This document shows, piece by piece, positions 44,325 through 51,665 of a DNA stretch of 64,000 nt (position 1 is its first letter; every line of letters starts with the position of its first letter). The DNA lies in contig NZ_JHZF01000013.1 in NCBI RefSeq assembly GCF_000688295.1, positions 558,001 to 622,000 of the forward strand, in the 5' to 3' direction. Under the pieces are notes generated by a model. The model saw only the letters and a list, made by a program, of their open reading frames with translations, was not told where the DNA came from and ran no database searches. This DNA comes from Pseudooceanicola nanhaiensis DSM 18065 (GTDB lineage: Bacteria > Pseudomonadota > Alphaproteobacteria > Rhodobacterales > Rhodobacteraceae). The position numbers and the translations under genes are program-made.

Positions 44325-45983
44325 TCATGCAAACCGGCCTTGGCAGAACCAGCCCGAGGACATCGTCCCCCCGTGGGCGTAGTAGAGCCAGAGCCGTTCG
44401 CCCCCCTCGACCGTCACCCGCCAGTAATCCCGCACGCCCGAGCGCCACTCCGGATCGTCGAGCCACCATTCCGGCGCGATCCGCTCCGGTCCCCTTGCCG
44501 AAAGCGGGCGGAGGGTGCGGCCGCGCCAGCGGAAGGTCTCGGGGCGATGCGGCGTGTCGGGGGCCTGCACCGGCTCGGGCCGCCAGAGCAGGAGCGGACG
44601 CCGGAGCGGCAGGAGCGGCCAGTCTCCCGCGGGTTCGGACCAGGCGGCGGCAAGCGTGATGGCGCCCTTCTCGGGGATGTGGGACGAGGCCGGGTGCAGC
44701 CGCGTCACCGCCTCCATCCCGACACGGCCGCCGATCCGGGCGATCAGGTCGTCGAGCGCGTAATCGCCCTTGAGCCGCTCTGTCACCGCCTCTCCGGCGG
44801 CCAGGTGGCCGCGGGTCTGGACCTTGTGCACCGGCTCCGCCTGCACCGCCTCGAGCCGCAGCATGTCGATGCCGAAACCGGCGTCGATCTCGGGCACCTT
44901 CATGGCGAGCAGGGGGCGCACCCGCTCGGGGTCGTGGCTCGGCCGGGCGAGCCCCGCGGTGATCCACTGCATCGAGCCATCGGTGCGATAGACCTGCAGC
45001 CGGGCGGTGCGGATGCCCATCCCCTTGGCTTCGAGCGTGGTGCAGAGCCGGTCGAGCAGGCGGTCGAGCCCGGCGAGGATGTCGCTTTCCAGCCCGATCG
45101 GCTCGGGCAGGGTCATCCGCACGGCGTCGGGCCGGTCGGCCTTTGCGGGCGAGACGGGTTCCGGCACATGGCCGAGGGCCTGATCGATGCGGAGCGGGAG
45201 CTGCCGACCGAAGCGCCGGGCAAGCGGGGCGCGGGGCTGGTTCAGCAGGTCCTCCACCCGCCGCAACCCGAGGCGGGCGAGCTGTTCGAGGGTCTGGGGA
45301 TCGAGCCGAAGCGCCGCCACCGGCAGCGGCGCGATCGCGCTGCGGGTCTGGCCCGGCGCGGCGATCCGGGCGGTCGGCGCGGGTTCGGAGGCGCGGGCGG
45401 GACCGGGGCCGCCCTTGACCCAGTGGCGCCGCGCGGCGCGCGACCGGGTCGAGGGCGCCTCGGCATCCACCGCGTCGCCGGTGCGGTGGTGCTCCGCCGC
45501 GCGGCCGGCGTAGCGCGCAAGCGCCCATGCGGCGCCGGGCGTGTCGGCGATCCCCGCCAGGTGCGTCAGGCCGAGGCGGGCGCAATCGGTGGCGAGGTGT
45601 TCCAGCAGCGGCGCCTCGCCGCCGAAGAGATGGGCGCAGCCCGAGATGTCGATCAGAAGGGATTCGGGCGCCACCTCGGCGACCCAGGGGGAATATTTCC
45701 CGGCCCAGCGTCGGAGGACCGTCAGGAAGGCGGCCTCGCGCTGCGGATTCCTGAGCCGGGTGATCAGCTCGGGGCACATCGCATGGGCATCCCTGAGCGG
45801 CTGGCCGCGGCTGAGCCCCGCCGCCGAGGCCGCGGCGGAGAGCGAATGCAGGGTCTGGAGGTTGCCGCTCTCTTCCACCACGGCGAGGGGCTGGCCATGG
45901 TCGCCCCCCTGCGCACGCAGCATCCGCTCCGCGCCGAGGCGGGGGAACCAGACGGAGAGGATGCGTCGGGACGGGGCAGGCAT
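44325..45983 (-). CDS. imuB: ImuB, Y-family DNA polymerase-like mutasome protein
   Basis: This 552-residue protein is a catalytically altered Y-family polymerase that acts as an adaptor in damage-induced mutagenesis. RILSVWFPRLGAERML at the start, SLLIDISGCAHLFGGEAPLLEHL and DTPGAAWALARYA are ImuB landmarks; the C-terminal part (HPASSHIPEKGAITLAAAW, FRWRGRTLRPLSARGPERIAPEWW) is unique to this family. A LexA box (GTTC-N7-GTTC) lies 12 bases before the start. ImuA and DnaE2, normal partners, are not adjacent: the neighbours are an acyl-CoA dehydrogenase and a GDSL lipoprotein. Confidence 0.93.
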   Translation of the reverse strand: MPAPSRRILSVWFPRLGAERMLRAQGGDHGQPLAVVEESGNLQTLHSLSAAASAAGLSRGQPLRDAHAMCPELITRLRNPQREAAFLTVLRRWAGKYSPWVAEVAPESLLIDISGCAHLFGGEAPLLEHLATDCARLGLTHLAGIADTPGAAWALARYAGRAAEHHRTGDAVDAEAPSTRSRAARRHWVKGGPGPARASEPAPTARIAAPGQTRSAIAPLPVAALRLDPQTLEQLARLGLRRVEDLLNQPRAPLARRFGRQLPLRIDQALGHVPEPVSPAKADRPDAVRMTLPEPIGLESDILAGLDRLLDRLCTTLEAKGMGIRTARLQVYRTDGSMQWITAGLARPSHDPERVRPLLAMKVPEIDAGFGIDMLRLEAVQAEPVHKVQTRGHLAAGEAVTERLKGDYALDDLIARIGGRVGMEAVTRLHPASSHIPEKGAITLAAAWSEPAGDWPLLPLRRPLLLWRPEPVQAPDTPHRPETFRWRGRTLRPLSARGPERIAPEWWLDDPEWRSGVRDYWRVTVEGGERLWLYYAHGGTMSSGWFCQGRFA

Positions 45984-45994
45984 GGGATTCGGAA

Positions 45995-46009
45995 GTTCGC
46001 TGTTTGTTC
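45995..46009. promoter_or_regulatory. LexA (SOS) box upstream of imuB
   Basis: The sequence gttcgctgtttgttc is an exact GTTC-N7-GTTC direct repeat, the LexA recognition form of alphaproteobacteria. It lies 12-26 bases before the imuB start, so DNA damage should induce imuB. The divergent GDSL lipoprotein gene starts about 100 bases away and may or may not share the control. Confidence 0.8.
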
Positions 46010-46058
46010 CGTTTTACCGGAAGGGTGGGCGGCGAGTCGAGTCCGCGCCGAGGCCCAG

Positions 46059-46088
46059 GGCGATTGATCCCGGGGCGATTGATCCCGG
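46059..46088. repeat. 15-bp perfect tandem repeat
   Basis: The unit ggcgattgatcccgg occurs twice in direct succession (46059-46073 and 46074-46088), 25 bases before the GDSL lipoprotein start. It may be a recent duplication, or paired binding sites in the leader. Confidence 0.75.
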
Positions 46089-46113
46089 GGCAGGGCGCGT
46101 TACGTCGCCCGGG

Positions 46114-46770
46114 ATGAGAGCCCTGATCGTCCTGAGCCTGATCCTGACCACCGGACTGCTGGCGGCCTGCGCCCGCGGCGTGCCCGGCGACGCGCGCGTC
46201 GTCGTGGCGGGGGATTCCGTGATGGCCTGGAACCGGGGGCAGGGCGGCTCGGTCGCGGACGGGCTGCGCGCCCGGCTGGGCGAGCCGGTCGGCGACGTCT
46301 CCTTCCCGGGAGCGCAGGTCGCGGGCGGCGGCGGCCCGTTGAACATTCCCCGCCAGCTTGACGGCGTGGCCACGCAATGGGTGGTGGTCAACGGCGGCGC
46401 GAACGACCTCGGCCGGAACTGCAACTGTTCCGACTGCGGGGCGGTGCTGGACCGGCTGATCTCGGACGACGGGGCGCGCGGGGCCATCCCGGCGCTGGTG
46501 ACGGAGCTGCGCGGGCGCGGCGCGCGGGTGATCTGGGCGGATTACTACACCTCGCCGCGCTTCGCGGGCACGACCTGCGAGCGTCCCTACCGCGTGCTCG
46601 AGACGCGGCTGCGCCGGATGGCGGCGGCGGATCCGGGGGTCACGCTGGTGGACATGGACGATGTCTTCCGGCCGGACGACCTGACGCTCTTCGCGGCGGA
46701 CCGCACCCATCCGTCGGTGAAGGGCTCGCAGCGGATCGCGGACCTCGTGGCGGCGCAGATCGGGCGCTGA
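46114..46770 (+). CDS. SGNH/GDSL-type hydrolase lipoprotein
   Basis: This 218-residue protein has a lipoprotein signal with lipobox LLAAC (Cys19), then an SGNH hydrolase fold: catalytic Ser35 in VVAGDSVMAWN, the block III GGANDLG and the C-terminal DRTHPS with the catalytic Asp and His. It probably cleaves an ester on an envelope lipid or polysaccharide, in the periplasm and anchored to a membrane. Four cysteines (CNCSDC, TTCERP) near the middle may form disulfides. It is divergent from imuB and convergent with the glycosidase-like gene. Confidence 0.87.
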   Translation: MRALIVLSLILTTGLLAACARGVPGDARVVVAGDSVMAWNRGQGGSVADGLRARLGEPVGDVSFPGAQVAGGGGPLNIPRQLDGVATQWVVVNGGANDLGRNCNCSDCGAVLDRLISDDGARGAIPALVTELRGRGARVIWADYYTSPRFAGTTCERPYRVLETRLRRMAAADPGVTLVDMDDVFRPDDLTLFAADRTHPSVKGSQRIADLVAAQIGR

Positions 46771-49382: not shown

Positions 49383-49568
49383 TCAGAAGTCGACCGCGAG
49401 CCCCTTCTTCTCCCAATCGCCGTAGCGCACGGGCTCGGGGCCGTCGCGGCCGCCGAGCTCCTTCGGCAGCCTGAACTCGCCGGCCTTGCGACGACGTTCC
49501 TCGGCCTCGGCCAGCGCCCGCTGGGCGGCGGGGGGCAGATCGGGGCGGTCTTGCGCGGTATCGTTCAT
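49383..49568 (-). CDS. DUF1674 protein (SDHAF4-like)
   Basis: This 61-residue protein ends in the DUF1674 signature KELGGRDGPEPVRYGDWEKK, followed by GLAVDF, which is shared with mitochondrial succinate dehydrogenase assembly factor 4. By that relation it may help mature the flavoprotein of complex II, although succinate dehydrogenase genes are not in the window. It is divergent from rsmB by 66 bases and convergent with the small periplasmic protein gene. Confidence 0.88.
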   Translation of the reverse strand: MNDTAQDRPDLPPAAQRALAEAEERRRKAGEFRLPKELGGRDGPEPVRYGDWEKKGLAVDF

Positions 49569-49634
49569 CTCGGCTTCCTTCCGGGTCACGAGGTTGATAT
49601 ACGCCGCGCCCTGCGCTGTGCAAGGAGTCGCCCT

Positions 49635-51554
49635 ATGGCCAAAGACCCGAAATCCCCGACCTCCGGCCCCCGCGAGGGCGACGGAGAGCGCCGGTCCGGC
49701 GGCCGTGGAGGCCCCGCAGGCAAGGGCCCCCGGCGCGATGGCGACCGGCCCGCGGGCAAGGGCCCGCGGCGCGAAGGGGGTGACAAGCCCTACGGCAAGG
49801 GCCCGCGGCGGGAAGGCGGATCGGATCGGCCGTCCTACGCCAAGGGTCCCCGGCGCGACGGCGACCGGCCCGCGGGCAAGGGCCCGCGGCGCGAGGCGGG
49901 CGACAAGCCCTACGGCAAGGGCCCGCGGCGGGAAGGCGGGTCGGATCGGCCGTCCTACGCCAAGGGTCCCCGGCGCGAGGGCGACCGGCCCGAGGGCAAG
50001 GGCCCGCGGCGCGAGGCGGGCGACAAGCCCTACGGCAAGGGCCCGCGGCGGGAAGGTGGATCGGATCGGCCGCCCTACGCCAAGGGTCCCCGGCGCGATG
50101 GCGACCGGCCCGAGGGCAAGGGCCCGCGGCGCGAGGCGGGCGTCAGGCCCCACGGCAAGGGGCCGCGCGGCGACGGGGCGGGCAGGCCGCAGGGCCGGGG
50201 CGGCAAGCGTCCGGCGGACCGTCAGGATTCCGATCACCGCGACGGACCCCGACGGTCGGACGGGCCGCGCTCGGACCGGCAGCCTCTGCCGCAGACGGCG
50301 CGGGGCGGCGCGGTGGCGCTGCTCGACGGCGTGATCGGGCGCGAGAAGCTCCTGTCCGAACTCACCGGCCCCGGCGGGCCGCTCGACCGGCTCTCGCCCT
50401 CGGACAAGGCGCGGGCGCAGCGGCTCGCGACCGAGACCCTCCGCGGCCTCGAACGGGTCGACCGGCTGCTGCAGCGGCACATGACGAAATACCCGCCGCT
50501 CACCACCCGCAACATCCTGCGGCTCGGCACGTGGGAGCTCTGCACCGGCGGCGCGGCGCATGGCGTGGTGAACGATTGCGTCGACCTCGCCGCGAAGGTG
50601 CCCAACAGCGAGGCGCTGAAGGGCCTCGTCAACGCCGTGCTGCGCAAGATCGCCGATACCGGCCCCGCCGCATGGGAGACGCTGCGCGTGCCGCGCCTGC
50701 CGAAATGGCTGCGCGAGCCGCTGGCCGAGGCCTGGGGCAACCCGGCCGTCACCGCGATGGAAGAGGTGCATTTCCTTGCCCCGCCGCTCGACCTCACCCC
50801 GCGCGAGCCCGCGCAGGCCGAGGTGCTGGCGGGCGAGATGGGGGCCGAGTTGCTGCCGACCGGATCGCTCCGGCTGACCGAGTCGGTGCAGGTCTCGGCC
50901 CTTCCGGGGTTCGAACAGGGCGCCTGGTGGGTGCAGGACGCCGCCGCGGCGCTGCCCGCGAAGCTGCTCGCGCCGCAGAAGGGCGAGAAAGTGCTCGACC
51001 TCTGCGCCGCGCCGGGCGGCAAGACGCTGCAGCTGGCGGCGGCCGGGGCGGATGTGACGGCGCTCGACATCTCGCAGCGGCGGATGGCCCGGGTGAAGGA
51101 GAACCTCGAACGGACGGGCCTGACCGCCACCTGCCTCACCGGCGACGCGCTGGACCATGCGGGCGGGCCCTATGACGCGATCCTGCTGGACGCGCCCTGT
51201 TCGGCCACCGGCACGATCCGCCGGCACCCGGATCTGCCGGTCGCCAAGGACGGCAGCGAATTCGGTGCGCTGATCGAGCTGCAGGCGCAGATGATCGACC
51301 ACGCGCTGACCCTGCTGGCGCCGGGCGGCCGGCTGGTGTTCTGCACCTGCTCGCTGCTGCCCGACGAGGGCGAGGTGCAGGTCGAGGAGGCGCTGGAGCG
51401 TCACCCGGGCCTGCGCATCGACACCGAGGCGCGCGCCCTGCCGGGCATCCCCGAGGCGTGGTTCAGCGAAGAGGGCGGCCTGCGGATCCGCCCCGACCAC
51501 TGGGCCGGGCAGGGCGGGATCGACGGCTTCTACATCGCCGTCCTGCGGCAGTGA
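49635..51554 (+). CDS. rsmB: 16S rRNA m5C methyltransferase RsmB with repetitive N-terminal extension
   Basis: This 639-residue protein has about 200 extra N-terminal residues made of Lys/Arg/Gly/Pro-rich repeats (KGPRR motifs about every 13 residues, 40-residue higher-order unit). Residues from about 220 on form a normal RsmB: NusB-like helices (RTARGGAVALLDGVIGREKLL, TTRNILRLGTWEL) and a Rossmann methyltransferase with DLCAAPGGKTLQLAAAG, LLDAPCSATGTIRRHPD and the nucleophile in VFCTCSLLPDEGE. It methylates C967 of 16S rRNA. The basic, disordered extension probably binds RNA. It lies upstream of the heparinase-like gene and purH. Confidence 0.94.
   Translation: MAKDPKSPTSGPREGDGERRSGGRGGPAGKGPRRDGDRPAGKGPRREGGDKPYGKGPRREGGSDRPSYAKGPRRDGDRPAGKGPRREAGDKPYGKGPRREGGSDRPSYAKGPRREGDRPEGKGPRREAGDKPYGKGPRREGGSDRPPYAKGPRRDGDRPEGKGPRREAGVRPHGKGPRGDGAGRPQGRGGKRPADRQDSDHRDGPRRSDGPRSDRQPLPQTARGGAVALLDGVIGREKLLSELTGPGGPLDRLSPSDKARAQRLATETLRGLERVDRLLQRHMTKYPPLTTRNILRLGTWELCTGGAAHGVVNDCVDLAAKVPNSEALKGLVNAVLRKIADTGPAAWETLRVPRLPKWLREPLAEAWGNPAVTAMEEVHFLAPPLDLTPREPAQAEVLAGEMGAELLPTGSLRLTESVQVSALPGFEQGAWWVQDAAAALPAKLLAPQKGEKVLDLCAAPGGKTLQLAAAGADVTALDISQRRMARVKENLERTGLTATCLTGDALDHAGGPYDAILLDAPCSATGTIRRHPDLPVAKDGSEFGALIELQAQMIDHALTLLAPGGRLVFCTCSLLPDEGEVQVEEALERHPGLRIDTEARALPGIPEAWFSEEGGLRIRPDHWAGQGGIDGFYIAVLRQ
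49722..50168 (+). repeat. 120-bp tandem repeat in the rsmB 5' region
   Basis: The coding sequence for the RsmB extension has an exact 120-bp period: blocks starting at 49722, 49842, 49962 and 50082 (the last about 87 bases) are nearly identical. Each unit encodes 40 residues with three KGPRR motifs. Differences are single bases such as Ala/Glu swaps (RPAG, RPEG). Copy number is likely to change by slippage or recombination. Confidence 0.92.
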
Positions 51555-51561
51555 CGCCGCG

Positions 51562-51587
51562 CCCGGCGCGCCATCGGGGGCGCCGGG
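51562..51587 (+). terminator. Hairpin after rsmB
   Basis: An 8-bp perfect stem (51562-51569 with 51580-51587) with a 10-nt loop lies 8 bases after the rsmB stop. No clear T tract follows. It may reduce read-through into the heparinase-like gene. Confidence 0.4.
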
Positions 51588-51665
51588 CCATTCCCTCATG
51601 ACTTTCGACCCTTCGGGCGATAGACTCGGCGGAAAGACGCCAGCACGGCGCATGAGGCAGGTCGG

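Follow-up and report, generated by a model that had tools for sequence, protein, structure and literature searches.

The 16S rRNA m5C967 methyltransferase RsmB (Fmu/Sun) combines a NusB domain with a Rossmann methyltransferase domain that carries catalytic cysteines in PC and TC motifs, and the chain solved for the E. coli enzyme (1SQF/1SQG) has 429 residues, without the 220-residue repeat tail of the RsmB described here. Long, disordered, basic tails have been described on other bacterial rRNA methyltransferases. In ErmE, PikR1 and PikR2, which methylate A2058 of 23S rRNA, the tails are Arg/Gly rich and have been proposed to bind a 50S assembly intermediate, while ErmC' manages the ErmE target without a tail (PMC6787224). 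These enzymes differ from RsmB in fold family, target and subunit, with ErmE being tailed at both ends, and we claim no homology between them. The literature searched contained nothing directly on point for an N-terminal disordered extension of RsmB, for RhlE tails or for pseudouridine synthase tails, and we found in it no published description of RsmB as the carrier of such a tail.

We analyzed a window of 64,000 nucleotides from Pseudooceanicola nanhaiensis DSM 18065, whose genome is a 4.66-Mb draft in 20 contigs. The rsmB gene of this window (Table 1) is followed on its 3' side by a heparinase II/III-like gene, and no Rfam family, sigma-70-like promoter or terminator was detected in the rsmB region. 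Named relatives of the protein are found in Pseudooceanicola sp. and Oceanicola sp. 22II-s10i (72% identity each), P. nitratireducens and P. onchidii.

Table 1. Features of the rsmB region (positions in the window)
Feature	Coordinates	Strand	Basis or remark
DUF1674 (SDHAF4-like) small protein gene	49386..49568	-	PF07896, E 6e-15; divergent to rsmB, upstream limit of the rsmB region
Shine-Dalgarno AAGGAG, perfect	49622..49627	+	7 nt upstream of ATG 49635
rsmB, 639 aa: tail, NusB domain and m5C methyltransferase domain	49635..51554	+	ORF, Pfam/NCBIfam, PDB 1sqf/1sqg relative
Disordered basic N-terminal tail, 220 residues, net charge +28	49635..50294	+	Composition; AF2 pLDDT 40-51, no secondary structure
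120-bp tandem repeat, 3.7 copies	49721..50167	+	TRF, repeat search, module split
NusB-type RNA-binding domain	50295..50705 (3' limit approximate)	+	PF01029, residues 250-340; first AF2 helix residues 222-236
SAM-dependent m5C methyltransferase domain	50961..51551	+	PF01189, residues 443-638

The original prediction, made from the letters of this window, was that an in-frame repeat extension of recent origin, with almost identical DNA copies, precedes a normal RsmB. Tandem Repeats Finder (TRF), an ungapped repeat search, the open reading frame and the Pfam matches all bear this out. The array of 447 bp scored 789 in TRF, with 95% matches and no indels, and the ungapped search returned three 216-nt copies at spacings of 120 and 120; given this score and register, chance can be set aside. 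Three full units occupy positions 49722-50081 and differ pairwise at 5 to 8 of 120 bases (93-96% identity), as expected of recent expansion, and the fourth is partial and degenerate. Each unit encodes 40 residues, built from KGPRR modules of 12 (KGPRR[DE]GDRP[AE]G), 13 (KGPRRE[GA]GDKPYG) and 15 (KGPRREGGSDRP[SP]YA) residues, so that KGPRR occurs 11 times and KGPRG once in the whole tail. When the tail protein was searched against the genome that encodes it, nothing further matched at E <= 1, so a detectable paralogous tail is excluded as the source of the repeat.

The first 221 residues include 51 G, 44 R, 34 P, 22 D, 18 K and 12 E. The original prediction called the tail Arg/Gly rich, but it is better described as Gly/Arg/Pro/Lys rich with mixed charge (K+R 28%, D+E 15%). 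RGG motifs are rare, and the clustered RGG/RG repeats of a classical RGG/GAR domain are absent. The tail does resemble that of ErmE, by analogy and not homology, in that a long R/G-rich end of the chain stays disordered and apart from the folded enzyme. AlphaFold2 (AF2) leaves residues 1-220 unstructured and reaches pLDDT values of mostly 90-98 from residue 222, where the folded core begins.

This core contains a NusB domain (Pfam E 8e-14) followed by the RsmB/F methyltransferase domain (Methyltr_RsmB-F, E 1e-44), both above cut-off and in the order that characterizes RsmB. The two catalytic-cysteine motifs expected of RsmB appear in the translation as DAPCSATGTIRRHPDLP and FCTCSLLPDEGE; the PC and TC cysteines are Cys522 (51198-51200) and Cys572 (51348-51350), both invariant in relatives. 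The best match among solved structures was E. coli RsmB (1sqf/1sqg, deposited as SUN protein; E 3e-49, residues 230-604). The NCBIfam RsmB equivalog models scored best, with nothing nearer, at 264 and 211 bits against cut-offs of 375 and 269, which are annotation thresholds rather than biological defining features. Because the scores fall below these cut-offs, we base the name RsmB on the domains, the catalytic residues and the orthology within the Rhodobacteraceae. Judged from its sequence, the core is an ordinary RsmB with its folded part intact, and it is predicted to methylate C967.

Translation almost certainly starts at position 49635, to judge from the start signals. The AAGGAG preceding it is also perfect upstream of about half of the rsmB genes of the genus. 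Between this position and the NusB domain the rsmB frame contains no ATG, GTG or TTG, the next being a GTG within the first NusB helix, so that a start after the repeat would need a non-standard codon or cost part of the folded domain. Substitutions between relatives point the same way. In the close pair G003 and G011, with tails of 260 and 257 residues, dN/dS was 0.14 over 252 tail codons compared with 0.06 in the core (protein-guided alignment), these being simple Nei-Gojobori estimates on low-complexity sequence. Their tail differences were distributed 18/13/71 over the three codon positions (p about 6e-14), with identical counts in a DNA-only alignment, and the tail gaps measured 3, 12 and 24 nt. 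The G015/G019 tails gave 1/2/9, with few changes, and the G009/G010 tails gave a nonsignificant 5/1/2, with a dN/dS of about 1.2 on 8 changes, showing no constraint. From the third-position excess, the low dN/dS and the indels in multiples of three, we conclude that the tail is translated and, in some cases at least, under constraint. Purifying selection could, nevertheless, act on composition, solubility or codon/RNA features instead of RNA binding. An untranslated repeat with RsmB beginning downstream, which the original prediction had itself raised and which agrees with an unextended core sufficing in most relatives, is contradicted by the missing in-frame start codons, the Shine-Dalgarno sequence ahead of 49635 and the codon-position bias of the tails, and we regard it as extremely improbable.

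Other reading frames over the tail were considered as coding and rejected, as the third-position excess in the forward direction favors the rsmB frame. The +1 frame lacks stops in this species and contains them in several relatives; the antisense -0 frame is free of stops throughout, a common situation in GC-rich DNA. We also observed that the dS of the G003/G011 pair was about 3-fold higher in the tail (0.45) than in the core (0.16), perhaps because repeats convert one another or because codon choice is less constrained there.

We searched 22 genomes of the genus, taken as Pseudooceanicola and near kin, and found an rsmB orthologue in 21; G017, an assembly that is 77% complete, yielded only distant paralogues. 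All 21 genes encode a basic tail, with lengths of 27, 27, 34, 34, 35, 37, 37, 44, 45, 48, 48, 52, 53, 54, 64, 81, 85, 220 (the RsmB described here), 257, 260 and 300 residues, where the starts of relatives were picked by Shine-Dalgarno match and codon and single lengths may err by some residues. Contrary to what had been implied, the tail is thus not unique to this protein, and the length variation expected between strains is seen between species of the genus. The tails share a composition (K+R 20-30%, G+K+R+P 49-75%, hydrophobics at most 14%, net charge +6 to +40), to which the long ones add 12-15% acidic residues. In contrast, their repeats are unrelated, with GGKPGGYAKRDRPE in G014, RGENRGGP-type units in G003/G011 and KGPRR in the present tail. 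Composition is therefore conserved across the genus and sequence is not, which means that no specific contact is preserved.

A family-wide search gave a match in 278 of 296 genomes. We surveyed tails outside the genus at the 60 loci with the longest open frames among the matches listed (∼160 of the 278), and comparable basic tails were present at only two of these, in G097 (∼103 residues) and G174 (∼53 residues). Two further loci of the 60 have short basic tails of 21-23 residues, and the rest start ∼4-15 residues ahead of the domain; at L134, the automatic start choice was overruled in favor of MPNTKI, where close relatives start. RsmB of named Roseobacter relatives mostly starts 5-25 residues before the domain, while some other Alphaproteobacteria, e.g., Rhizobium halophilum and a Geminicoccaceae MAG, have modest basic extensions. 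In a tree of the RsmB core, the genus forms one clade (support 99/97) with G097 and G174 outside it. Tail presence requires three changes on this tree, consistent with one putative gain in the genus and two elsewhere, in G097 and G174.

Similar tails are found on other RNA enzymes. RluB of this genome is tailed at both ends, with 72 residues containing GGKP repeats at the N terminus and 22 residues at the C terminus. We sampled 27 RluB loci from other Rhodobacteraceae genera, of which 23 could be parsed by motif, and 22 of these 23 end in a basic tail of ∼14 to 365 residues. Like the RsmB tail, these tails of an rRNA-modifying enzyme are rich in G, K, R and P and often tandemly repeated, with independent C-terminal repeats in L228, L233 (APREGAERKPY) and L235 (RPRAPREGFGDRKP). 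Most of them, however, are C-terminal and they occur family-wide, in contrast to the N-terminal RsmB tail, which is mostly restricted to the genus. Two DEAD-box RNA helicases of this genome (L183 and L185), which are ATPase remodelers, also carry K/R/G/P-rich low-complexity tails, located at the C-terminal end. Tails of this type are common on RNA enzymes of the Rhodobacteraceae, and in the RsmB tail the type has been expanded by repeats. With these repeat-bearing RluB tails across the family and the ErmE precedent (PMC6787224), the uniqueness implied by the original prediction is not supported.

We propose, with a probability of roughly 0.6, that the tail serves as an electrostatic, non-sequence-specific RNA tether that strengthens the grip of RsmB on 16S rRNA or the pre-30S particle. 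The tail, which is translated, intrinsically disordered and positive in net charge, would have been acquired in the ancestor of the genus; tandem duplication of the 40-residue unit would then have lengthened it in this species. Many weakly RNA-binding K/R-G-P modules would keep more RsmB close to its substrate or hold it there for longer, the interspersed D/E residues would curb indiscriminate sticking, and the folded core would still select and methylate C967. RNA binding, which the original prediction had suggested, agrees in direction with the composition, the AlphaFold2 disorder and the analogy to ErmE; we infer the binding itself, the kinetic benefit and the role of the acidic residues. 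Electronegative clusters limit nonspecific RNA binding in Nop15 (PMC8348266), and the acidic residues of the tail may act similarly. Since most of the examined Rhodobacteraceae RsmB proteins are tail-less, as is ErmC' acting on the ErmE target (PMC6787224), the tail is dispensable for methylation as such. As it recurs in all the relatives examined within the genus, we regard the tail as probably a genuine addition of modest importance that helps the enzyme hold RNA, and not as a novel system.

The main rival to a tether is near-neutral growth in length of a tail constrained only in composition, which we consider unlikely but to be taken seriously. A short basic tail would be kept for weak reasons, with 220 residues adding little; length would come from slippage or recombination in GC-rich DNA, and selection would remove only stops, frameshifts and unfavorable composition. 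The unrelated repeat units of this genome, G014 and G003/G011 fit such growth, as do the short tails of the closest relatives (44 residues in G016, 37 in G020), the concentration of indels in tails (13 gap columns between G003 and G011, none in the core) and the likewise idiosyncratic expansion of RluB tails in the family. On the other hand, the low dN/dS of the G003/G011 tail and a K+R fraction that stays nearly constant at all tail lengths indicate more than stop avoidance. Low-complexity repeats containing R, G, P and Y are often linked to phase separation, and the tail is such a repeat, with similar ones on other RNA enzymes of the genome. A role in forming or entering RNA-rich condensates, or in cold or stress adaptation, is nevertheless improbable, as the tail has only 6 Tyr, few RGG motifs and mixed charge, and none of the present results links the genus to cold habitats.

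The copy number might also be wrong, with the array collapsed or inflated during assembly, given that in this multi-contig draft genome it exceeds typical short reads and its three units are so similar. We regard this as very unlikely: the copies carry distinguishing substitutions, the array lies inside a 1.42-Mb contig and tails just as long recur in other members of the genus, which were assembled independently. An error would, moreover, alter the repeat number and not the existence of the repeat. Returning to the proposed tether, tail length might even be an evolvable tuning knob. Duplication of KGPRR units would then alter the dwell time of RsmB on the pre-30S particle, methylation stoichiometry or ribosome assembly would vary between strains, and RsmB and RluB would have been recruited repeatedly to this scheme; we consider this extension speculative and rather unlikely.

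Taken as a natural series, the 21 orthologues with tails of 27-300 residues and the tail-less outgroups allow one to measure how much a disordered basic tail contributes to rRNA modification. They also show one gene in one genus undergoing apparently independent repeat expansions, in which frame and amino acid composition are kept while sequence turns over. Should the tails do nothing, the series would show how readily low-complexity growth is tolerated in bacterial enzymes.

Several minor features were observed as well. The tail of the helicase L185 (G000:C11:58678-59181 and downstream) contains repeated YKPRAE-like units. On the minus strand of the window, a 756-codon antisense open frame (49383-51653) covers the DUF1674 gene and most of rsmB, and looks like the usual mirror frame of GC-rich DNA rather than a gene. 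A 15-bp repeat of 2.5 copies at 46054-46091 encodes AIDPG-like residues in the ORF at 45541-46770, just upstream of a probable lipoprotein or SGNH-hydrolase start.
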